From: Chloroflexota bacterium
Lineage (GTDB): Bacteria; Chloroflexota; UBA5177; JANWHV01
DNA: 9,842 nt
Direction of reading: 5' to 3'
NCBI GenBank assembly: GCA_025924845.1
Contig: JAICHN010000174.1
Coordinates: forward strand, 1-9,842
The position numbers and the translations under genes are program-made. The notes beneath the pieces were generated by a model, which saw only the letters and a list, made by a program, of their open reading frames with translations, searched no databases and had not been told where the DNA came from. Within the stretch, counting starts at the first letter, position 1, and every line of letters starts with the position of its first letter. Positions 2-9,650 of this stretch are shown here, piece after piece.

Positions 2-304
2 CCCTCCGCCGCGCGGGCTCCCGCCGAAGGTGCGCCGGCGCGGGCCGGGCGCCGGGCGGGCGCCGCTGTCGCGGCCCACGACGTGATTGGGTCACAGCTC
101 TCGCCTGGGGAGAGAGCTCGGTTTGATCGCCTGCTGGCTCCCGCCCGGCAGATGCTGAGTGAGCCTCGCGCCGCGGCGTCATGGGCAGAAGGACGGGCGA
201 TGGGGCTGGACCGTGCCGTGCAGTACGCGCTGGAGGGGCGGTTTGACCTTCCGGCACAGGATGATCATCGTCCTTCGCCGGTTACCTCCACACTATTGGG
301 GTGA
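2..304 (+). CDS. 3' end of a large transcriptional regulator (ATPase/TPR-type C-terminus), partial at left edge
   Basis: The frame is open from the window edge to a TGA at 302-304, so this is most likely the last ~100 codons of a gene that begins outside. It starts with a low-complexity Ala/Pro/Arg stretch with G-biased first codon positions. This leads into a helical tail containing ERARFDRLLAPARQML and then SWAEGRAMGLDRAVQYALEG. From knowledge of the family, an 'R..L..AR..L.....A.WAEGRAM.L..A..YAL' ending closes many long HTH-ATPase-TPR regulators and adenylate-cyclase/ATPase-like regulators of Chloroflexota and Actinobacteria. A GTG at 83 could start an isolated 73-residue ORF, but the open frame upstream and the family-like tail argue against that. 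The effector and DNA-binding parts are outside the window, so the regulon cannot be stated. The gene converges on the secreted peptidase gene. Confidence 0.62.
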   Translation, partial: PSAARAPAEGAPARAGRRAGAAVAAHDVIGSQLSPGERARFDRLLAPARQMLSEPRAAASWAEGRAMGLDRAVQYALEGRFDLPAQDDHRPSPVTSTLLG

Positions 305-325
305 ACCGGAACATGCCGCGCGAGG

Positions 326-363
326 CGAGGGGGATGATTGCCTTTCGGCAACCATCCCCCTCG
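326..363. terminator. 17-bp hairpin between convergent genes, likely bidirectional terminator
   Basis: The left arm at 326-342 and right arm at 347-363 are complementary over 17 bp with a single non-Watson-Crick position, around a 4-nt loop. Read on the minus strand the loop is GAAA (a GNRA tetraloop) and the imperfect pair becomes G-U, so the structure is most stable in the transcript of the peptidase gene, which ends at 417. No clean U-tract follows on either side; the plus strand has only scattered T residues after 363. It could be a non-canonical intrinsic terminator or an mRNA 3'-stabilising hairpin. Nothing else is visible in 305-416. Confidence 0.7.
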
Positions 364-416
364 TCCTGTTTCGATCCTTCTATGCTGAAGGCTAGGTCTT
401 CGTCGCAAGGCGCCCG

Positions 417-3400
417 TCAACTTTGGTGAATGATGATATTCCCTCCACCAAGCGGTGTCGCTGCGTTGCCCGTATTGGATTCGCCCATCTTGTTGTCATA
501 GACGATGGCCCCATTGTTAGCGTTGTCCCAGATCTTAATGCGGAAGGCATCATCGCCCGGGCTTTGCGCTTGGCCGTTCATATCGCCATCGATAGCGGTC
601 AAGAGGAAACCGTAGTTGCCCTGGCCATTGATCGTACCGGTGCCCTTGAATTGCGCACGGCTGCCCGAAATGACCAGCCATTGGTAGGTAGAGCTGTGGA
701 AGTCCAGATTGCCGGCCTGGAACTGGAATTGGGTGTCCCCCGAGGGCACATTGGCGCCCTTCTGATACCTGGCTACGAAGCCGAACGCGGCTTTGCCCGC
801 GGTGCTTCCATCCGCGGAACAGGTGCTCAAGAGGCATGCGCCCGGCGGTGAGGCGATCCACCCTCCACCGCTGACGAAGCCGGCGCTTGGGTCGTAGACC
901 GCCAGCAGTGACGTCGCGGGCGCCGACGTGAAGTACGAGCCGACGACAGTGGCCGAGACGACGTACACACCGGCGCCGAGCGTTCCTGGGAAGGTCGCCG
1001 CGGCGATGCCGTTTGCAGAGACTGAGGTTGTCGTCTTTGCGACGACGGACCCGGTGGAATCGAGAGCGGTAAACTGCACTTGCGCCTGTGATAGATCGTT
1101 CAAGAACGTATCGTCTACCCGCGCCACGGTCGCCGTGAGTTGCACCGTGGTGCCGATCGCATCAATGGCATCACCGGAGTAGGAAATGGTAGCCTGCTCG
1201 GGAGCAATGCTGAGCGCCGTGGGTGACGCAGTGGAGCTCAAGTAGTCGGGGTCCGCCTCCGTGACGGTGCTGCTGTCCTGGACGACCTTCAGCGGATTAT
1301 CAACTCCTCCGAACATCGCGGTCACGGAGTACGATCCGGCTGGAAGCAGGAGGGTGCCCAGCGCCGCGCGGCCGAGGTAATCTGTAATCGCCGCCTTTGT
1401 GTACGTGGTTCCTCCGCCGGTGATCGTGAACACGACGCTTCGCTGAACAAGCCCGTTTCCATTGCTGTCGGTAAGCGTGGCCGTGATTGGAGCCGTGCCG
1501 CTGTAGGATGCCGAGGCCCCCGAGGTTGGCGTGAGCGCCAGTGTGGTGGGCGCGGGCGTTATGGTGAACGAGCCGGCCTGCGACGACGACGCATCGTAGG
1601 TCGTGCCGTTTACCGTGGCCCCGGCAAAGCCGGCGACGACGGCGTAGGTTCCGGGCGGCTGGTTGAGCGGTATTGAAACCGTTGCCTTGCCGGTTGCATC
1701 AGTTACGGCGAGCACTTGCCGGCTGCCGAGCTGCACCGTCACCGGTTGATTCTGCAGGCCGTTGCCGCTCGAATCCTGCAACTGGACCGTGAACGAGCCG
1801 CTTGTCGTTTGGTAGGGGCCCGAGGATGCCGCCTGTTGCACGGATAGAGTGGTCGGCATGGTGGAAGCTGAATTGGCGCCGACAGTGTAGTACGCGCCGG
1901 AATTGGTGGAGAGGCTCACCAGACCGGTGCCGTTGGCGGCCTGGACCATGAATACGATGCTGCTTGGTAGAGGCCGGGTATCGGTCCATAGGCTTGAGTC
2001 CGCGGCATCCTGATGAAGGTCGATTGATTGCCACGTCCCTGGATTGTTTGGATCGGTATACGTGATCCAGACACCCTGCGTGCCGGCCGACTGGTCGCTT
2101 GACACGCGCACCCTGAACGTCACGTTTCCGCCGGCGTCGGAAATGGCCGACACCGTGCCTATCGTCGGCGCCGCGGCCACCGCGGTCTGGCTTGTCGGTG
2201 TCGTGGGCCAATTACTCGGCAGGTAATATAGTCGGAATTTTAGGTCGCTGAACTGGCGAAGGGTGCCGTCGGCGGCGCCGGCGGCGGTCGACCTGTACTG
2301 TGCGGGCGCGGTAGCCAGGAGTTCAGAACCGCCTCCGATCGCGGCGAAGAAGTTGGCGGACCAGACCTGGGAGGGGTAGAAGGCGCTGGAGTAGAAGGCC
2401 GGATGGCCGACCGATGTCTCCGTACCAACTGCTGTGGTGAGCGGCGTTACGTGTGCCGTATCGGTGTAGGTGCCGCCCCGGAAGGCTATGCCGCGCAGGA
2501 CCTGGCCCGCAACGTGTACGTTGTAAAGTTGTGAGGGGAACACGGGTTCACCGGGCCGAGCCACCTCGCCATTGTTGGGCCCGGTCAGATAGGTTGCCGT
2601 GATCGGCGCGTTTGTGGCGTCATTGGTGAGCGTGATGCTGTGTGACGTGAGCGAGGACTGGACGTCGATGTCGGATGACCCACCGGCGGTCTGGCCTATG
2701 GCTAGGCCGAACCCCTGTCCGGGGCCGGAGGATACGGTCGGAGCGGACGCGATAATGGAGGTATTTGGCCCGCTGTTTATGTGGTCACCCTTCATGTTGA
2801 CCTGTAGCATCGGCAACCCGTAAAGAGTGACTTCCAGTAGTGTCTTCTCGTCGACGCCCGACAAGGCCGTGTGGGTTGCGAGGTACTCCTGCTTGGCCGC
2901 CACGTCGGCCTGACCGGTCGTAACGGGGACGTAGCCGGCACCGGAAAAGCTGCGTAGTTGCCGCAAGTAGTTGTCATACAAGTGCTCGCCATACTCTGTG
3001 AGAACAGTGTCGCCGTACGCATATCCGCTCGCGGCCAGCAGCGTCGCACCCTTCTCGGCCATGGCCTCCGGCCAATCGGGAGACGGTGAAAGAGATTGGA
3101 CGGCATCGGCGCTCGGAATGGTATAGCCACTGTGGCAGCCCAGCGCGAGGACCAGAGTATTGGTCATGTAAACCGTGGACGAGGCAACCTCGGCCGCGCT
3201 GAGCGTTGTGGCATAGTCGGCGGCTTCCAGGTTGCCTGCACTGAAGTGACCGGCCAGAAATACCACGTCGTGGCGGCTGCCGAACAGCGCTTGCCGCAGA
3301 TCGTTCGCGGTCCAACTGGTCGATGGTGACTGGCCTTGTGGTGAAATGAGCGTGTCGGGGCTTGCGCTGATCCCCGCCTGTAATTCGTTCTGCGCGTTGG

Positions 3401-5756
3401 TCGCGGCGTCTGCTACGAAGTCATAACCGGTGATCAATGACGAAGACGGTGTGATCAGCCCATTGGCGGCCGTGTACGCGTCGAGCATACGGCTCACTTC
3501 AGACGTGGACCTGACGAGGCGGCCAACCGCCAGGTCGGGGATCGGTAGCGACACGTCGCCCAGCGGCAGAGAGAGTGATGCGCCGTACTCGTCCTGGCCC
3601 AGCACATAGTTGTCGCGCAGGCCGGCATTGGAAGCGCTGGAATCCGCTACCGGCGGATAGTATTGATTCTCAGGCCCCAAGCCCGATTCGTCCGGATAGC
3701 GGAAGAACGGGATGGAGTGGTCGTCGCCGATGAGCACGATGTACTGCAGCCCGGGGTTCTGGGTGCGATAGGCCTGAACGATACTCTTGATGTCCCCGGC
3801 GACCAGATTCTTGGCAGTAGGACAGGCGGGATTGCTGTCGGCCTGCTCCTGCGCCGATCCAGGCCCATCGATTCCGGTTACGGTGCTCAGATCGACCACC
3901 GCGCCATGAACTTCCTGGCGGCCGGCGAATTGGTCGAGCTTGGTACGCAGGGTTGAGATATCGGATGAAGAACCGTCGATGCGCGACGGGTCCCAGAGAA
4001 TGAGCGTCGTCAGCCCGGTGGAAACCACGGTAGGCGGTGTGAAGGGCACGGGCGTGACGCCGGCGCACACGCCGCCGGATTCGGTGACCGTGAGGCTGAA
4101 CGGCGTAGAAGCACTGGGCGGCGCGGCAACGCGCACATACATGTAGCCAAAACTCGTCCAGGTATCGTGATCGATGGTCTGGACGGATGAGTTGGGGGTC
4201 GCTGAGACTGCCAACAGGCCGGCGTAAGGCGCGTCCGAATACGGGCCCGGCAGGAAGCTTTGCGGCAAGAAACTCTGCGGCAGGAAACTCTGCGGCAAGA
4301 AGCTTTGCGGCAGGAAACTCTGCGGTAAGAAGCTCTGGGGCAAGAAGCTTTGCGGCAAGAAACTCTGCGGCAGAAAACTCTGCGGCAAGAAGCTCTGGGG
4401 TAAGAAGCTCTGCGGCAGGAAGCTTTGCGGCAGAAAACTCTGCGGTAAGAAGCCGGAAGCTGCATCCTTGGCACTCTGTAACGCTGCATTCCGCGGATTG
4501 GTGAGCGCACTATATTCACTCTGCAGGTCGGAATGTAGGCTAAGTACTGCTCCGGGAAGCCCGGAGTATTGAACGTGAACCGTGCTGTCCGGCGTGACCA
4601 GGAACTTGTACCAGCGCTCGGTGACGGCGCCGTAAATCGACTGGCTTATGGTCTGATGTACTTCATAGGAGCCTGTGGTCTGGCTCAGCGTCTGCGCGGC
4701 GCCCCAGGTGCTGTTCTGGCAGTAGACGGGAGCACTGTACGACACCGTGCCGCTGCACGCGACCCCCGCCACGGTGATCGTGAACTGTGTACCGGAATCG
4801 AGCGCGCCAGGAGTATGCAGGCCATAAAAGCTGCCCAGGGTGAACTGGATCTGCGAATCGGAGTAGCTGGTGACCAGCAGTCCCAGGTAGTCATAGTGTA
4901 CCTGGCCATCAGTGGGGCATACGTAACCGGTGGATGCAGGTCCTGCTTGCCCAGCTTCCGCTCCTGGATAGGTGAGGGATAGAACGCCGCACGGATAGTC
5001 ATTGCCGGTGAACGTCTGGCCGGCATAGGAACCACTGCCGACCGGTCTCGACACGATAGGTTCGGGCAAGGCTGAGCCGAAGCCGGAACCGTTGATCGTA
5101 ATAGTCGGATTCTCCGCGGGATTCCCAAACCTGATCAGGTTAATAAGCGGTGGCGCGCATGTCGTTGGGGTGGTGAAACTGACGGTACCTGAGCACGGTT
5201 GGCCTCCGACATAGGCCGTGAACGGATCACCGACATTGAGGTAGAACCCGCCGCTAGGAAAGGTAAACTTTGGCCCGTAGCCATCCCCGAAGCTGTAGGC
5301 AATCGAGGTGTCTGAATAGTGGCTGACGACAAGGCCGACATGATTGCCTGCCTGTCCGGCGCTCCAGGGGGCTGGAGCGGTCGAAGCGTTATCGGTGAAC
5401 GCCAGTTCGAGTGCCGAGCCGAAATCCTGCCCGGTGTACCCGTCAAACACGGGCGATCCCCCGGTCCCATCGGGAATCGCCGCCGGTTCACTGCCGAAGT
5501 TCTGGCCGTTGACAATCACTGTAACGTTTCCGTCGAGTCCGGCGGTGCCGGAAAAAGCTACCGTGGTTATAATCGGCATAGCCGCGGCGCGGGCCGGCAG
5601 GGCACCGCTCCCGCCGATGGGCAGCCGAGAGCTGAGAGACGATACCTGTGCCCCAAGTACGAATAACACGATTGCCGCCATGCGCCGGAGCCTGTGGTGG
5701 ACGACGACGCCGCTGACCGAGAGCGGAACGGGAATACGCGACTGCTTTGCACTCAT
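417..5756 (-). CDS. Giant secreted modular cysteine peptidase, gingipain-like family C25, with TIG, PPC-like, Ig-like and post-COAP-1-type domains
   Basis: The start is ATG at 5756, because AGAGG (5764-5768) sits 7 nt upstream; a TTG at 5783 would extend it by 9 residues without a visible ribosome-binding site. The product is 1779 residues. Residues 1-59 form a secretion signal: basic HHRLRR, hydrophobic MAAIVLFVLGA, then an ARAAA cleavage region. Residues ~60-200 and ~205-346 are two homologous TIG-like domains, each closing with a CSGTVS...C motif (C188/C200 and C334/C346). A PPC-like beta domain (~347-560) is interrupted at 436-503 by FLPQS repeats. Residues ~580-985 resemble the C25 caspase-fold peptidase, with His837 in AGHFS and Cys874 in LGCHSG, 37 apart (33 in RgpB). 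An unassigned beta region follows, then Ig-like domains near 1195, 1299, 1404 and 1510. The C-terminal domain (1621-1779, from FVSGGGW to GGGNIIIH) is post-COAP-1-like. No membrane anchor, LPXTG or sorting signal is seen at the end. Substrate is unknown; activity is inferred from the dyad only. Confidence 0.88.
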   Translation of the reverse strand: MSAKQSRIPVPLSVSGVVVHHRLRRMAAIVLFVLGAQVSSLSSRLPIGGSGALPARAAAMPIITTVAFSGTAGLDGNVTVIVNGQNFGSEPAAIPDGTGGSPVFDGYTGQDFGSALELAFTDNASTAPAPWSAGQAGNHVGLVVSHYSDTSIAYSFGDGYGPKFTFPSGGFYLNVGDPFTAYVGGQPCSGTVSFTTPTTCAPPLINLIRFGNPAENPTITINGSGFGSALPEPIVSRPVGSGSYAGQTFTGNDYPCGVLSLTYPGAEAGQAGPASTGYVCPTDGQVHYDYLGLLVTSYSDSQIQFTLGSFYGLHTPGALDSGTQFTITVAGVACSGTVSYSAPVYCQNSTWGAAQTLSQTTGSYEVHQTISQSIYGAVTERWYKFLVTPDSTVHVQYSGLPGAVLSLHSDLQSEYSALTNPRNAALQSAKDAASGFLPQSFLPQSFLPQSFLPQSFLPQSFLPQSFLPQSFLPQSFLPQSFLPQSFLPQSFLPQSFLPQSFLPGPYSDAPYAGLLAVSATPNSSVQTIDHDTWTSFGYMYVRVAAPPSASTPFSLTVTESGGVCAGVTPVPFTPPTVVSTGLTTLILWDPSRIDGSSSDISTLRTKLDQFAGRQEVHGAVVDLSTVTGIDGPGSAQEQADSNPACPTAKNLVAGDIKSIVQAYRTQNPGLQYIVLIGDDHSIPFFRYPDESGLGPENQYYPPVADSSASNAGLRDNYVLGQDEYGASLSLPLGDVSLPIPDLAVGRLVRSTSEVSRMLDAYTAANGLITPSSSLITGYDFVADAATNAQNELQAGISASPDTLISPQGQSPSTSWTANDLRQALFGSRHDVVFLAGHFSAGNLEAADYATTLSAAEVASSTVYMTNTLVLALGCHSGYTIPSADAVQSLSPSPDWPEAMAEKGATLLAASGYAYGDTVLTEYGEHLYDNYLRQLRSFSGAGYVPVTTGQADVAAKQEYLATHTALSGVDEKTLLEVTLYGLPMLQVNMKGDHINSGPNTSIIASAPTVSSGPGQGFGLAIGQTAGGSSDIDVQSSLTSHSITLTNDATNAPITATYLTGPNNGEVARPGEPVFPSQLYNVHVAGQVLRGIAFRGGTYTDTAHVTPLTTAVGTETSVGHPAFYSSAFYPSQVWSANFFAAIGGGSELLATAPAQYRSTAAGAADGTLRQFSDLKFRLYYLPSNWPTTPTSQTAVAAAPTIGTVSAISDAGGNVTFRVRVSSDQSAGTQGVWITYTDPNNPGTWQSIDLHQDAADSSLWTDTRPLPSSIVFMVQAANGTGLVSLSTNSGAYYTVGANSASTMPTTLSVQQAASSGPYQTTSGSFTVQLQDSSGNGLQNQPVTVQLGSRQVLAVTDATGKATVSIPLNQPPGTYAVVAGFAGATVNGTTYDASSSQAGSFTITPAPTTLALTPTSGASASYSGTAPITATLTDSNGNGLVQRSVVFTITGGGTTYTKAAITDYLGRAALGTLLLPAGSYSVTAMFGGVDNPLKVVQDSSTVTEADPDYLSSTASPTALSIAPEQATISYSGDAIDAIGTTVQLTATVARVDDTFLNDLSQAQVQFTALDSTGSVVAKTTTSVSANGIAAATFPGTLGAGVYVVSATVVGSYFTSAPATSLLAVYDPSAGFVSGGGWIASPPGACLLSTCSADGSTAGKAAFGFVARYQKGANVPSGDTQFQFQAGNLDFHSSTYQWLVISGSRAQFKGTGTINGQGNYGFLLTAIDGDMNGQAQSPGDDAFRIKIWDNANNGAIVYDNKMGESNTGNAATPLGGGNIIIHQS
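4257..4451 (-). repeat. 13 tandem 15-bp units encoding the pentapeptide FLPQS
   Basis: Thirteen exact FLPQS pentapeptides (residues 436-500 of the C25 protein) are followed by a truncated FLP before GPYSD. The DNA units differ at Ser (AGT/AGC), Phe (TTC/TTT), Leu (TTG/CTG/CTT-type and TTA choices) and Pro (CCG/CCC), yet every difference I checked is synonymous. The array is a multiple of 3, so unit gain or loss would change length without a frameshift. A proline every five residues suggests an extended or spiral linker rather than a helix; that is an inference. It is not a CRISPR array, as there are no spacers. Confidence 0.97.
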
Positions 5757-5763
5757 GGATAAA

Positions 5764-5768
5764 CCTCT
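5764..5768 (-). promoter_or_regulatory. Ribosome-binding site (AGAGG) deciding the start of the C25 gene
   Basis: AGAGG on the minus strand lies 7 nt before ATG 5756. This favours that start over the TTG at 5783, which has no purine-rich site in front of it. The spacing matches that seen for the other genes of this window. Confidence 0.65.
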
Positions 5769-5793
5769 CGACCGACAACGCAAGATTTTGGTT

Positions 5794-5921: not shown

Positions 5922-7106
5922 CTATAGCTCCGTCGCGGGCTCCAAGGCAGGATGAGCACGGACAAAATACTCCCTTCCGAACAATTCTTTCATAACACCG
6001 AGCGGCAGCATGTCGGGATCAAAAGCGAACTGGCTGCGATGTGCGGCCATCGCATCGAGTTTCCGACGCACGAAGGGTCCGACATCAATACAGGTTGTGG
6101 CCGCGCCGGCTCCATCCAACCCCACCGCCTCTGGTGCTTGACCTCTGGGGTTAGCGTCGAGGTGAACGTCCTTGCCGCGGCCTTCAAACGCCGTCGGTTT
6201 CGCGGGCGAGAAGACGAGACAGGTCGTGCTCTCGGCCGCTACCACGTGGGCGTTGCGGGGCAGGCCGTGGGCCAGACCCTGCTCGCCGAAGAACATACCC
6301 GGCTCCAGACGGTTCCGCGGCTCCAGCGTGCCATCCGGCTGCTCGACGATCGCCTGCGCACCACCGGACAGGAGCAGGTAAAGCTTGGTCGCAGGCTCAC
6401 CCTGCTCAATAATGTAGAAACCACGTGGATACCAGTTGACTTCGACAAAATCGCTTGCGTAGTGCAGGAGGGCGTTTTCTTCGGCGAGGAGCATTAACGC
6501 CTGTACAAATTCAGGCGATCCCTGGAAGCGCTCTTTGTGCCGCACCAACCACTGCACTAGCCGCTCGAGCAGCAGCAGGCGGCTGGTGGGAAAGTAGCTC
6601 TGATAGTATCGCTCCGGCTGGTGAGGGGCGAGGCCGACGGCAGTCTGCTCCGGGAAGGCAGCGGCGTCGCCGGCGCGGTGTACGGCCTCGGTGGTGGCGA
6701 GGCTCGTCACGATGTGATCAGGATGTCCATATCCGCCGTCGGGCCCGAAGGCCAGCACGATATCCGGCCGGAACTCTCGTATGACCCGCACGACATCGCG
6801 CACCAGCACATGCTGGTCCAGCTGATCGAGCATACCGTCGCCGTAGTCCCAACAGACGGAGTGGCGCGCACCCAGGAGCTGGGAGGAAAGGTGCAGCTCC
6901 TTCTCGCGCACAGCTCCCAGAGTGCGGCGAGTGGCGATAGAGGCGTCGCGGATCTGCCCCGCCTGCCCCTTGGTCGCCGACACAACCATGATCTCCGAAC
7001 CCTCGGCCGCGTATTTGGCGAGCGTGCCGCCGGCGACGAATACCTCGTCATCGGGATGGGCGAACACACCCAGGATGCGCGGCGGTTTGCTCACCGGCTG
7101 ATACAT
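5922..7106 (-). CDS. LmbE/PIG-L family zinc deacetylase with an inserted cyclic-nucleotide-binding domain
   Basis: The 394-residue product begins with the LmbE/PIG-L signature AHPDDE (residues 16-21). It continues through MVVSATKGQAG and FGPDGGYGHPDH (HPDH at 128-131), which supply the zinc ligands and catalytic Asp of N-acetylglucosamine-type deacetylases and amidases such as MshB, Mca and BshB. Residues ~215-300 are instead a cNMP-binding (CRP-like) beta barrel: FYIIEQGEPATKLYLLLSG, then FFGEQGLAHGLPRNAHVVA, retaining the FGE Glu (E275) and phosphate-binding Arg (R284). The usual C-terminal LmbE segment then resumes at ~337 (TTCIDVGPFVRRK, HRSQ at 356-359, LFGREYFVR). The barrel therefore sits inside the hydrolase fold. 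There is no HTH and no signal peptide, so it should be cytoplasmic. The start has GGAG 8 nt upstream. It follows the PLP enzyme by 15 nt and is probably translationally coupled. The substrate (a GlcNAc conjugate or thiol conjugate) is not determinable here. Confidence 0.9.
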   Translation of the reverse strand: MYQPVSKPPRILGVFAHPDDEVFVAGGTLAKYAAEGSEIMVVSATKGQAGQIRDASIATRRTLGAVREKELHLSSQLLGARHSVCWDYGDGMLDQLDQHVLVRDVVRVIREFRPDIVLAFGPDGGYGHPDHIVTSLATTEAVHRAGDAAAFPEQTAVGLAPHQPERYYQSYFPTSRLLLLERLVQWLVRHKERFQGSPEFVQALMLLAEENALLHYASDFVEVNWYPRGFYIIEQGEPATKLYLLLSGGAQAIVEQPDGTLEPRNRLEPGMFFGEQGLAHGLPRNAHVVAAESTTCLVFSPAKPTAFEGRGKDVHLDANPRGQAPEAVGLDGAGAATTCIDVGPFVRRKLDAMAAHRSQFAFDPDMLPLGVMKELFGREYFVRAHPALEPATEL

Positions 7107-7121
7107 AATTGTTACTCCAGT

Positions 7122-8681
7122 TCAGGCCTGATAGTCGACAAAACTCTCGGCAAATTGCATGAAACGGTAGACGTCGGTGAAGTTTGAGGCGATACCAAGG
7201 GAAATGCGTACTGCCCCGCGGCCGTCACCGCCAGGGGTATGCAGTGCGTCCAGGAATTGCTCCAGCGTCATCCGGTCCGTTTGGCGGAAGAAGCTCTCCA
7301 GTTCTTCCGCCCCGAGATCCAGTGCCTTCTCGCGCGCCCCTGGGTTGCAGAAGCAACCTGTTCGCAGCGAGATTGCTTGGCGATTGGCGCACTTCTCGGT
7401 ATAAAGATGCTCGATCAGCCTACCTTCGGGGTCCATAACATTGAAGGTAATCGTGCCGCCGCGCATCTTTGTCGTGGGCGTGCCGTACAAGACCGCCAAC
7501 GGGCGGCCGTTGCTGTGCCGAAGGCCCGTGAGTTGTTTCAGCACCCATCCCGCGAGACAGCGTACGCGTTCGTGTATCGTCTCAATACCGATCTCGTCGA
7601 GATGACGCAGGCCGATCTCCACCGCGGGAATAGCCAGATAATTCAGTGTCCCATCTTCAAAGGCCGCAGGGCCGGGAGCCAGGTTGTGGCCGTAGCCCAA
7701 CACCGACGAAAAGATGATCGTGCCCCCGGCATACCAGGGACGACGCAGCTTGCCGAGTGCTTCTTTGCGGGCGATCAAGGCCCCAACTCCCGTGGGGTAG
7801 CCGATGATCTTGTAGAACGACTGTGAAACAAAATCAGGTTTCACGCGGCTCAGGTCCAACCGATTGGTGGGAGTGAAGGCTGCCGCGTCGAGCAGCACAT
7901 CCCAGCCCAGCCCCTTCGCCTCAGCCACCCAATCAAGAGAGTGCTGCATGCCGGAGAAGTTAGACTGTGCCGGATAGGCGAACAGATTGTGTCTACTCCT
8001 ATCGATACGGGTTAGATTGTCCCGGAGCGCCTGCTCGTCAATACGCAGATCGGGCGGGACCACGGGGCTATAACTTACTGCCGCACCCTTGGCCCCCGCG
8101 AATTCGCGGATGCCGTTCACGGAGTTGTGGTTGTCGAAGGTGAGAAGGTATCGATCGCCGGGCTCGAACGGATACGATTCGCCCACCAGCTTGAGCGCAC
8201 CGCTGGCGTTAAGGGTGAAGATCACCTCGTACTCTTCAGGTGAGGCGTTGAAGAACTTCAGCACATAGGAGCGCGCGCTCTCGACCAACTTGGTCATCTC
8301 GAAAGAGGTTGGGTTGGAAGAATGTGGGTTGCCAAACACGTGAGTGTTCAGCAAATCCATGTATTGACGCAGGAGAGTTTCGTCGTAGAGCCCGCCGCCT
8401 GTGTAGTCGAGGTAGATCTGCTGTTTTCGGTCCAGCCGAGCATAGCCGGTGGCGCGCAACGTATCCAGCTTGACGGTGCGGTCATAGGCCGGGTTGTCTC
8501 TGCGGAAGGAGGCAAACGCGGCGTCTTGTCCTAGGCTCGGGAAGCTCTCCACCTTGTGCCGGCGGTTGGGGTCCGCCACTGGGTCCGGATCTACTATCAC
8601 ACCTGCTTGGAACCGCTGCTCAGTGGCCCGGGAAATCCCGGGGTCTCTTTGCAGTCGATCCTTGACGAAACGGTACAACAT
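7122..8681 (-). CDS. Class-V PLP aminotransferase-fold enzyme, molybdenum-cofactor-sulfurase-like, stand-alone
   Basis: ATG 8681 is chosen because CTGGAG (8689-8694) lies 7 nt upstream; the upstream ATG at 8762 would add 27 residues that do not resemble the family. The product has 519 residues. After a ~95-residue N-terminal extension comes the class-V core: IYLDYTGGGLY, VFGNPHSSNPTS, the cofactor-binding VLLDAAAFTPTN, and the Schiff-base lysine K291 in SFYKIIGYPTGVGAL. RTGCFCNPGA follows with C443 and C445. These motifs follow the N-terminal domain of eukaryotic Moco sulfurase (MOCOS/ABA3), in which a Cys of this loop carries the persulfide. The C-terminal MOSC domain of those proteins is absent: the chain ends right after the fold (ISLGIASNFTDVYRF). 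Cysteine desulfuration or C-S bond chemistry is inferred. It is the first gene of an operon with the LmbE/cNMP gene and is preceded by a structured leader. Confidence 0.88.
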   Translation of the reverse strand: MLYRFVKDRLQRDPGISRATEQRFQAGVIVDPDPVADPNRRHKVESFPSLGQDAAFASFRRDNPAYDRTVKLDTLRATGYARLDRKQQIYLDYTGGGLYDETLLRQYMDLLNTHVFGNPHSSNPTSFEMTKLVESARSYVLKFFNASPEEYEVIFTLNASGALKLVGESYPFEPGDRYLLTFDNHNSVNGIREFAGAKGAAVSYSPVVPPDLRIDEQALRDNLTRIDRSRHNLFAYPAQSNFSGMQHSLDWVAEAKGLGWDVLLDAAAFTPTNRLDLSRVKPDFVSQSFYKIIGYPTGVGALIARKEALGKLRRPWYAGGTIIFSSVLGYGHNLAPGPAAFEDGTLNYLAIPAVEIGLRHLDEIGIETIHERVRCLAGWVLKQLTGLRHSNGRPLAVLYGTPTTKMRGGTITFNVMDPEGRLIEHLYTEKCANRQAISLRTGCFCNPGAREKALDLGAEELESFFRQTDRMTLEQFLDALHTPGGDGRGAVRISLGIASNFTDVYRFMQFAESFVDYQA

Positions 8682-8688
8682 CAAATGT

Positions 8689-8694
8689 CTCCAG
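8689..8694 (-). promoter_or_regulatory. Ribosome-binding site (CTGGAG) deciding the start of the PLP enzyme
   Basis: GGAG lies 7 nt before the ATG at 8681 on the minus strand. The alternative ATG at 8762 has no comparable site at the right distance. Confidence 0.7.
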
Positions 8695-8761
8695 TTTTCC
8701 CACGTTTGCGCTTCGTTTACCTGTCCGGGAGCGGGGAGCGGCGCGCACCGATCTTGGCGCA

Positions 8762-8803
8762 TTTGCCACTTCCACGCTCACGTTTGCCACCTAGGCAAAA
8801 TGC
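8762..8803. promoter_or_regulatory. Three TTTGCC half-sites upstream of the PLP-deacetylase operon
   Basis: TTTGCCAC occurs at 8762-8769 and again at 8783-8790, exactly 21 bp (two helical turns) apart. The second copy forms an inverted repeat with GGCAAA at 8794-8799 (TTTGCC-N5-GGCAAA). GCATTTGCC (8760-8768) can also pair with GGCAAAATGC (8794-8803), with one extra A. The cluster lies ~80-120 nt upstream of the start codon. It could be an operator for a dimeric repressor, or alternative stems in the leader RNA. The regulator is not identifiable. Confidence 0.5.
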
Positions 8804-8950: not shown

Positions 8951-9505
8951 CTACGGTGAGGCTCCTCCTGCCAGCACAACCCCTGCGCGCAGCACCTGCG
9001 CCATAGTCACCGCCTCGGTCAGGCCGAGCGGCGGCATCACTCCCAACTGCTCCAGTAAGCCCAGCAGGTCTGCCTGCACCCACAGGTCCACGAGCCGACC
9101 GGCTGCGAAGCGACTGACCGCCACCCCCGTGAGCGTCGCCGGTCGTCCCGGCGGCGCCAGCCCCACCAGCGTGCCCGAGAAGGTGCCATGCACCTGAAAT
9201 CTGGTCACCACCGTCTCACCCTCTGCCACCAGTTCCAGGATGGTCCAGCGCGCATCGGGCACCGCAGCCTGGAATGCTGCCAGCAGATCGTGTAGGCGCC
9301 CCAATGTCGGCCTGCCAGGCGTAAGTTCAGGCTCCTGACCCGAGGGGTCCTCGGGCCTGTGGAGGGTAGGCCCGGCCAATAGCGCGTCCAGCACCGCCAG
9401 GTCGCCCTGGTTACAGGCCTCTTCCACCACCCGGCGGACCAGGCCTGCGCTCGCGGCGGCGCGTCGTTCCCGCTGCTCCTCCGTCGGATGCTGCATGCTC
9501 GGCAT
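8951..9505 (-). CDS. SnoaL-like / ester-cyclase-family protein
   Basis: ATG 9505 is preferred because AAGGGG (9513-9518) lies 7 nt upstream; longer starts up to 9640 run into the divergent promoter region and add unrelated residues. The product has 184 residues. It has the SnoaL pattern: an amphipathic first helix (VRRVVEEACNQGDLAVLDALLAG), a middle segment with LHDLLAAFQAAVPDARWTI, and a beta sheet VAEGETVVTRFQVHGTFSG. It ends with AVSRFAAGRLVDLWVQADL and LLEQLGVMPP. The family has the NTF2-like alpha+beta barrel fold and includes polyketide cyclases plus many uncharacterised bacterial proteins, usually 130-150 residues. Here a ~30-residue charged N-terminus and a ~25-residue hydrophobic C-terminal tail extend it. 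No signal peptide is seen. It lies 269 nt upstream of the PLP gene, so is probably a separate transcript, and is divergent from the XRE gene. Its substrate is unknown. Confidence 0.82.
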   Translation of the reverse strand: MPSMQHPTEEQRERRAAASAGLVRRVVEEACNQGDLAVLDALLAGPTLHRPEDPSGQEPELTPGRPTLGRLHDLLAAFQAAVPDARWTILELVAEGETVVTRFQVHGTFSGTLVGLAPPGRPATLTGVAVSRFAAGRLVDLWVQADLLGLLEQLGVMPPLGLTEAVTMAQVLRAGVVLAGGASP

Positions 9506-9512
9506 CGGTTGT

Positions 9513-9518
9513 CCCCTT
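9513..9518 (-). promoter_or_regulatory. Ribosome-binding site (AAGGGG) deciding the start of the SnoaL-like gene
   Basis: AAGGGG on the minus strand lies 7 nt before ATG 9505. It supports the 184-residue form over the 229-residue extension. Confidence 0.6.
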
Positions 9519-9596
9519 CTGGGCGGTCCCGGCACGGTGGTCGTGTCCCTTTTCCTCGTTCCTACTCTAAGCAATACCGCCCGGCCCCAACACAAA

Positions 9597-9621
9597 CAGT
9601 GGTCGTACACTGCTCGTACAG
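9597..9621. repeat. 11-bp-phased repeats in the divergent promoter region
   Basis: TCGTACAC (9603-9610) and TCGTACAG (9614-9621) are spaced 11 bp apart. A weaker third unit is visible when read on the minus strand as ACTGTACGAGC, AGTGTACGACC, ACTGTTTGTGT. CAGTG (9597-9601) and CACTG (9608-9612) form an overlapping inverted repeat. The units end directly against the putative -35 box of the XRE gene, the position of a typical activator or autoregulator site. Confidence 0.5.
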
Positions 9622-9650
9622 TTGCGACCACGGTCGGCACGGGCTACACT
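9622..9650 (+). promoter_or_regulatory. Putative sigma-70-type promoter of the XRE regulator
   Basis: TTGCGA (9622-9627) and TACACT (9645-9650) are separated by exactly 17 nt, each matching the consensus at 4 of 6 positions. This would give a leader of ~70 nt before the ATG at 9727. Such partial matches occur by chance, so the call rests mainly on position and spacing. Confidence 0.4.

Follow-up and report, generated by a model that had tools for sequence, protein, structure and literature searches.

The Locus and Its Genes

The window, by which we mean the whole stretch of 9,842 nucleotides analysed here, encodes on its minus strand a predicted PIG-L/LmbE hydrolase with an internal cyclic-nucleotide-binding (CNB) domain. 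The gene (5922..7106) is an open reading frame of 394 amino acids that runs from an ATG at 7106 to 5922. Pfam recognises PIG-L at residues 14-142 (E 8.2e-34, above the cut-off) and cNMP_binding (PF00027) at residues 225-301 (E 2e-14; 53.8 bits versus a gathering score of 27.5). The LmbE Rossmann core (residues 10-173; 6588..7079, minus strand, as are all parts of the gene given below) was delimited from the Pfam match, the strands and helices of the predicted structure and an alignment to MshB. It is followed by two helices taken from the secondary structure of the model (179-188 and 198-214; 6465..6572), the CNB beta barrel (220-300; 6207..6449), and a linker, mostly of low confidence, that was placed by model and conservation and holds R310 and G311 (301-337; 6096..6206). 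The C-terminal LmbE lobe (338-385; 5952..6095), placed by the model and by structure alignments, comprises a strand, a helix with K349, HRSQ, a further helix and the strand EYF. The motifs named in a preliminary description of this DNA, which specified no strand, were all seen in the translation: HPDDE at 17-21, HPDH at 128-131, HRSQ at 356-359 and GREYFVR at 377-383, together with the FGE (273-275, with E275) and R284 that it had ascribed to the barrel.

The upstream neighbour on the same strand is a class V PLP enzyme of cysteine-desulfurase-like type (7122..8762, minus strand), whose stop codon is separated from the ATG of the split enzyme by 15 bases. It matches Pfam Aminotran_5 (E 4.6e-41), its best sequence relative in the PDB is the cysteine desulfurase 8d8s (E 3.7e-24), and its NCBIfam matches are all of cysteine-desulfurase-like kinds. 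Two genes upstream of the split enzyme lies a SnoaL-like gene (8951-9640, minus strand). A 1788-residue open reading frame with a Big_1 domain occupies 417-5783 of the minus strand; within it the pentapeptide SFLPQ is repeated, the coding DNA being a tandem array in which a 15-base unit recurs in 13.7 copies (4248-4453). Its stretches AGHFSAG and GCHSGY are, to our eye, reminiscent of caspase-fold or C25 peptidases; such a peptidase gave no Pfam match in this frame at E 0.1. An Rfam scan of the window returned nothing at gathering score. An encapsulin system was also considered, given that the PLP enzyme resembles encapsulin cargo and that the CNB part weakly matches the NCBIfam model of the family 2B encapsulin shell (E 9.5e-5); it was set aside, as the Pfam scan, which covered four window proteins, showed no shell gene.

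A Single LmbE Fold around an Inserted Barrel

The preliminary description had proposed that a CRP-like barrel interrupts an LmbE deacetylase, and had named as a test whether the C-terminal 60 residues pack on the LmbE core. In the predicted structure they do, and the fold is split by a barrel of the CRP/PKA type. The LmbE fold of the model appears complete, including a C-terminal beta-alpha-alpha-beta lobe whose elements lie at 338-385, and its top structure matches are MshB and LnmX. The alignment to MshB spans 6..393 (248 residues), and that to LnmX spans 6..385 and covers 210 residues, versus 168 for the N-terminal part alone; alignments to MshB, LnmX and BshB extend to residues 385-394. 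Computation thus shows, at the level of a predicted structure, a single LmbE fold whose two parts flank a CNB barrel. Several of the CNB structure alignments start at 196-203 and others only at about 220, and the helices 179-188 and 198-214 are read, from the model, as belonging to the inserted domain, at its N-terminal end.

The insertion is equally apparent from motif spacing. Counting the loci in which both motifs were found (the split locus L015, at a contig end, is omitted, and 21/64 unsplit loci gave no value), HPDH and HRSQ are separated by 199-222 residues in 14/15 split loci and by 64-110 residues in 43/64 unsplit ones. The contrast in spacing that had been described therefore stands; the 110-130 residues given there for ordinary family members were somewhat high, which makes the difference between split and unsplit proteins stronger. 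In an alignment of four split proteins with 25 unsplit relatives, the loop that leads from the final Rossmann-core strand to the opening strand of the C-terminal lobe is 161-169 residues long in the former and 21-51 in the latter.

Both domains occur in all of the listed homologs (the best 120 of 6032 proteins above threshold, the window protein included); the architecture is therefore no assembly chimera. Chloroflexia and Roseiflexaceae are among the source names of the nearer relatives, which makes a Chloroflexota origin of the window probable. In a tree built from the catalytic parts of 24 split and 63 unsplit proteins, all 24 split proteins lie on one side of a branch with support of 100/99, recovered in 200/200 checked bootstrap trees, the bootstrap being not fully settled and the root serving for drawing only. 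The split proteins are thereby computationally shown to form one clade among the sampled sequences, to the extent that the catalytic parts resolve it; reference MshB and Mca sequences are absent from this tree.

Genome searches at E cut-offs of 1e-60 or 1e-55 recovered the split gene in 9/400 Chloroflexota and 2/396 Actinomycetota genomes, as well as in 11/96 genomes of the family of Geodermatophilus sabuli, 3/119 of the Flexivirga family and 6/47 of the order to which genome G104 belongs. Class-level searches around G012 (1/150) and G380 (1/151), and a search of the order of G173 (1/16), returned the query genome only. With so few positive genomes, the gene is sparse.

The Catalytic Site

The point of comparison is MshB, for which the literature describes the roles of His13, Asp15, Asp16, Tyr142, His144, Asp146 and His147 (PMC4101496). 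These residues align, in that order, to H17, D19, D20, Y126, H128, D130 and H131 of the window protein. The segment H17-P-D19-D20 (7047..7058) would provide the first zinc ligands and the predicted general base, D19, as equivalents of His13, Asp15 and Asp16; the segment Y126-G-H128-P-D130-H131 (6714..6731), with the equivalents of Tyr142, His144 and Asp146, would provide the third zinc ligand, H131. Among the listed homologs, H17, P18, D19 and D20 are conserved in 119/120, the remaining one having a gap, G127, H128, D130 and H131 in 120/120, and Y126 in 119/120. Across the 34 loci compared, HPDH is invariably present, as exact GHPDH in 32, as EHPDH in L105 and as SHPDH in L115. The position of MshB Tyr142 is more variable, being Ser in seven loci (L005, L007, L008, L009, L115, L088 and L107) and Phe in L013, such that catalysis may differ in these.

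All zinc-binding and catalytic residues of MshB are therefore computationally shown to have counterparts in the window protein, as judged from aligned sequence, and the protein is probably an LmbE-superfamily enzyme that uses zinc to act as an N-deacetylase or amidase.

The Nucleotide Pocket and the Linker

In cyclic-nucleotide-binding domains, the Glu and Arg of the phosphate-binding cassette have key roles. The cassette of the insert, G274-E275 ... P283-R284-N285-A286 (6249..6287), was delimited by conservation counts and follows the pattern FGE-x8-R-N-A; R284 stands nine positions after E275, the same spacing as in protein kinase A. Within the homolog listing, E275 is conserved in 120/120, R284 in 113/120, A286 in 119/120 and N285 in 102/120. 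The closest sequence relatives of the insert in the PDB are CNB domains of cGMP- and cAMP-dependent kinases, and N285 does not settle the choice between the two nucleotides. A dinucleotide ligand, which the preliminary description had entertained, finds no support here, as the cassette resembles those of ordinary cyclic mononucleotide domains.

The pocket Arg is kept in 28/34 loci. The six without it (L012, L088, L104, L105, L106 and L107) all come from the order of G104 and account for every member recovered there; L012 carries the name Ktedonobacterales. Three of them (L088, L104 and L107) replace the Glu of FGE as well, and all six keep HPDD and HPDH. We read this, from the aligned sequences, as a probable loss or change of ligand in a single lineage; the persistence of these enzymes with an abnormal pocket is evidence against the pocket being indispensable. 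The six also constitute a natural contrast set for the role of the sensor.

The region beyond the barrel is unusual. In ordinary CNB domains, helices that follow the barrel cap the base and move when nucleotide binds. Residues 301-337 of the ligand-free model hold no helix of four or more residues (DSSP assigns 333-335 only), 307-333 having pLDDT <50. R310 and G311 are nevertheless conserved in 120/120 of the listed homologs, G311 varying in the copies of the Geodermatophilaceae. A conserved yet unordered linker between sensor and lobe would fit a ligand-dependent latch.

Recurrent Neighbours of the Split Enzyme

Partner genes were located by tblastn with defined queries, as long antisense open reading frames mislead in loci of high GC content; flanks are short at L002, L011, L014 (one side) and L088, where neighbours may be missed. 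The most recurrent partner is a gene of the DUF2652 family, identified by Pfam at L115 and L013 and by tblastn elsewhere, which lies within about 2 kb of the split enzyme in 13/34 loci. It is downstream on the same strand in four of these, downstream on the opposite strand in seven, upstream on the opposite strand in one and upstream on the same strand in one. At L121 its stop precedes the start of the enzyme by 66 bases on the same strand, and at L008 and L009 the two genes are 1.7-1.9 kb apart, the gap containing another CNB-coding stretch. Such adjacency was seen in the Geodermatophilaceae, in Microlunatus flavus and in one genome of the Flexivirga family (G1152); DUF2652 was not found by tblastn beside any Chloroflexota copy among the 34 loci, the window included.

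Co-occurrence extends beyond adjacency. Among 96 Geodermatophilaceae genomes, DUF2652 is present in 11/11 with the enzyme versus 10/85 of the others (Fisher p 4e-9, with relatedness ignored). Since 10/21 DUF2652-bearing Geodermatophilaceae have no split enzyme, DUF2652 must have other uses. Across the 30 enzyme-bearing genomes searched, it is present in 16 and absent from 14; in 5/16 genomes that bear it (G1031, G1081, G008, G011 and G380) it was not found near the enzyme, lying on another contig in G1031 and G1081.

DUF2652 proteins have been proposed as class III cyclase-like, and CNB proteins have been reported beside them, in PMC4886424, the main text of which has no mention of PIG-L, LmbE or deacetylase. 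The best model of a DUF2652 protein reached a pLDDT of 85.7, the five models ranging from 52.2, and all 50 of the 50 Foldseek matches listed for it are adenylyl or guanylyl cyclases (best CyaC 1wc5_D, E 1.3e-9, probability 1.00), which indicates a predicted cyclase-like fold. D12, D56 and R142 are conserved in 120/120 proteins, and the usual Asn position is occupied by Ile (I138, 120/120); these metal-Asp, Asn and Arg positions are our own reading, guided by the same paper (PMC4886424). The computation shows that a putative cyclase is recurrently linked to the split enzyme in Actinomycetota; its presence next to the enzyme in some relatives points to direct gating by a small signalling molecule. 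Class III cyclases of the ordinary kind (PF00211) are found in 29/30 enzyme-bearing genomes searched (11/12 and 18/18), the exception being Microlunatus flavus (G010), where DUF2652 adjoins the enzyme; as they also occur in 5/14 control genomes, their presence is weak support.

Also found near the enzyme, in 10/34 loci (L005, L007, L013, L109, L110, L112, L113, L115, L116 and L117; by Pfam at L013 and L113, by tblastn at the others), is an MFS transporter carrying cNMP_binding at its C-terminus; it is on the side opposite DUF2652 in nine and on the same side in L013. Relatives of the window's PLP enzyme adjoin the split enzyme on the same strand at L103 (upstream) and at L004 and L006 (downstream), hence, with the window, in 4/34 loci and in two orders. 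Furthermore, at L010 of Leekyejoonella antrihumi a single open reading frame of 963 residues (7980-10871, plus strand) unites PIG-L, cNMP_binding and Aminotran_5, its PLP domain being remote from the window enzyme (no tblastn match at E 1e-3). The altered gene order and the fusion suggest a functional link between the two enzymes, probably sulfur or amine chemistry on a common compound. Of all neighbours, this PLP enzyme in the window and the DUF2652 and MFS-CNB genes of relatives tell most about function; the preliminary description had dealt with none of them.

The 13 annotated neighbours in Chloroflexota (L001, L012, L079, L102 and L104-L107) have no family in common. The partners that recur in this phylum are the PLP enzyme (window and L103) and a weakly similar SnoaL-like gene (window and L104); the latter, directly upstream of the enzyme at L104 (7386-7811, plus strand), gave no tblastn match to its window counterpart at E 1e-6. 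Genes of the capsule-synthesis type PGA_cap, 27% identical to one another, lie near the enzyme at L011 (975-2081, plus strand) and L106 (8316-9422, plus strand).

Interpretation and Competing Explanations

We favour the reading that this protein is a putative LmbE N-deacetylase or amidase gated by a 3',5'-cyclic mononucleotide, be it cAMP, cGMP or perhaps another, and assign it, catalysis and gating taken together, a probability of roughly 0.6. The cyclic nucleotide would bind at E275 and R284. In the model the chain leaves the barrel by way of the 37-residue linker, with its conserved Arg-Gly, and enters the C-terminal lobe directly at its first strand; since no post-barrel helices are seen in the model and the linker leads into a lobe strand, binding would be expected to order or shift the linker and so re-seat the lobe, by which the active site would open or close. 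As substrate, a thiol conjugate or an amino sugar with an N-acyl group is probable; the product, or a related cysteine conjugate, would then be handled by the adjoining PLP enzyme. The idea in the preliminary description that such a step is regulated with neither a kinase nor a transcription factor would be consistent with this reading.

A chief concern is whether the barrel still senses anything. CNB-type barrels can have structural roles, and this one may have become a structural, oligomerisation or partner-docking module within a constitutively active deacetylase, as might be expected from the loss of the pocket Arg alongside retained zinc motifs in 6/34 loci, from the atypical lid region with no post-barrel helix in the model, and from the 14/30 enzyme-bearing genomes without DUF2652. 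Against this weigh the conservation of E275 (120/120) and R284 (113/120) in listed homologs down to 55-56% identity, the retention of the Arg in 28/34 diverse loci, and the presence of a cyclase-like gene that both adjoins the enzyme and co-occurs with it in a nested manner, as well as of a second CNB protein nearby; we thus regard this explanation as unlikely, though deserving of some weight. More improbable still is that the protein is a deacetylase or amidase of the mycothiol or bacillithiol pathways (MshB, Mca or BshB) with a decorative insert. The nearest NCBIfam models are indeed Mca (106.5 bits) and MshB (103 bits), the top structures are MshB and LnmX, and the neighbouring PLP enzyme is of a sulfur-handling type. 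However, the equivalog cut-offs are missed by a wide distance (106.5 versus 277.15 bits for Mca, 103 versus 224.35 for MshB, 87.2 versus 195.25 for BshB2 and 81.8 versus 182.5 for BshB1), and the split proteins form a clade of their own, albeit in a tree without reference MshB and Mca.

Defence offers a further candidate explanation, in which a nucleotide cyclase and a CNB effector of the Pycsar type would turn the hydrolase on in infected cells. Pycsar systems are defined by a recognised Pycsar cyclase together with a TIR or membrane effector. The CNB part matches several Pycsar effector models of PADLOC, PycTIR among them (E 1.8e-5), the PLP enzyme of the window matches two PADLOC cysteine desulfurases, SspA at E 1.7e-13 and DndA at E 7.7e-13, a cyclase-like gene adjoins a CNB protein, and the distribution is patchy (9/400 Chloroflexota and 2/396 Actinomycetota genomes, at the cut-offs applied). 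In the split enzyme of the window, however, the matches are confined to residues 191-303, namely the CNB part, those of the PLP enzyme to SspA and DndA are expected of any cysteine-desulfurase-like protein, and there was no sign of a TIR or membrane effector component. PADLOC gave no match for either of the two DUF2652 proteins scanned, and the 20 neighbours scanned with Pfam belong to metabolic, transport, DNA-upkeep or unknown families, PADLOC having covered the DUF2652 and MFS-CNB proteins among them. We accordingly consider a defence role very improbable.

Returning to nucleotide gating, the neighbours allow a wider relay to be sketched, tentatively and with the odds somewhat against it. 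The DUF2652 cyclase would make a cyclic nucleotide, possibly not only cAMP because the usual Asn is Ile, that would be read nearby by the split zinc hydrolase and by the CNB-bearing MFS transporter. These might jointly govern how an N-acylated or thiol-conjugated compound is transported and released by hydrolysis, the cysteine-desulfurase-like PLP enzyme providing the next step in some lineages. With the sensor in place of a loop beside the active-site lobe, the ligand could directly remodel the active site.

Relation to Known Systems and Implications

Described LmbE-like enzymes such as MshB (4ewl, 1q74), LnmX (5bmo), BshB (6p2t, 2ixd) and the diacetylchitobiose deacetylase (3wl4) have chains of 231-299 residues and no sensor domain. 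Direct control of an enzyme by a CNB domain within one polypeptide is found in Rv0998/MtPat (PMC4964394); its CNB domain is, however, N-terminal to an intact GNAT acetyltransferase domain, of other chemistry and fold. Bd1971 likewise carries its CNB sensor at the N-terminus rather than as an insert, fused to an EAL phosphodiesterase that hydrolyses c-di-GMP. The family 2B encapsulin shell does hold an internal CNB domain, tethered by a linker of about 60 residues for which disorder is predicted (PMC8346489); its host fold is capsid-like, not that of an enzyme, and its CNB domain sits at the E-loop. Both CNB-enzyme fusions (MtPat and Bd1971) and a CNB domain inside another fold (family 2B encapsulin) are thus known, and databases already list both domains for the split proteins. 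The preliminary description knew of no reported example of the combination; among the titles and abstract openings listed from the open-licence PMC literature, likewise, no described LmbE hydrolase split by a CNB domain was found.

To our knowledge, there are few bacterial enzymes in which a cyclic mononucleotide acts directly as a switch by way of a CNB domain. If our reading is true, such switching would extend to a large hydrolase superfamily, by way of a sensor built into a zinc deacetylase fold, and the DUF2652 cyclase-like proteins would gain a likely enzyme effector. The split enzymes would also offer a natural template for nucleotide-gated hydrolases, and the proposal is testable in proteins of cultured soil actinobacteria, namely Geodermatophilus, Blastococcus, Microlunatus and Flexivirga.
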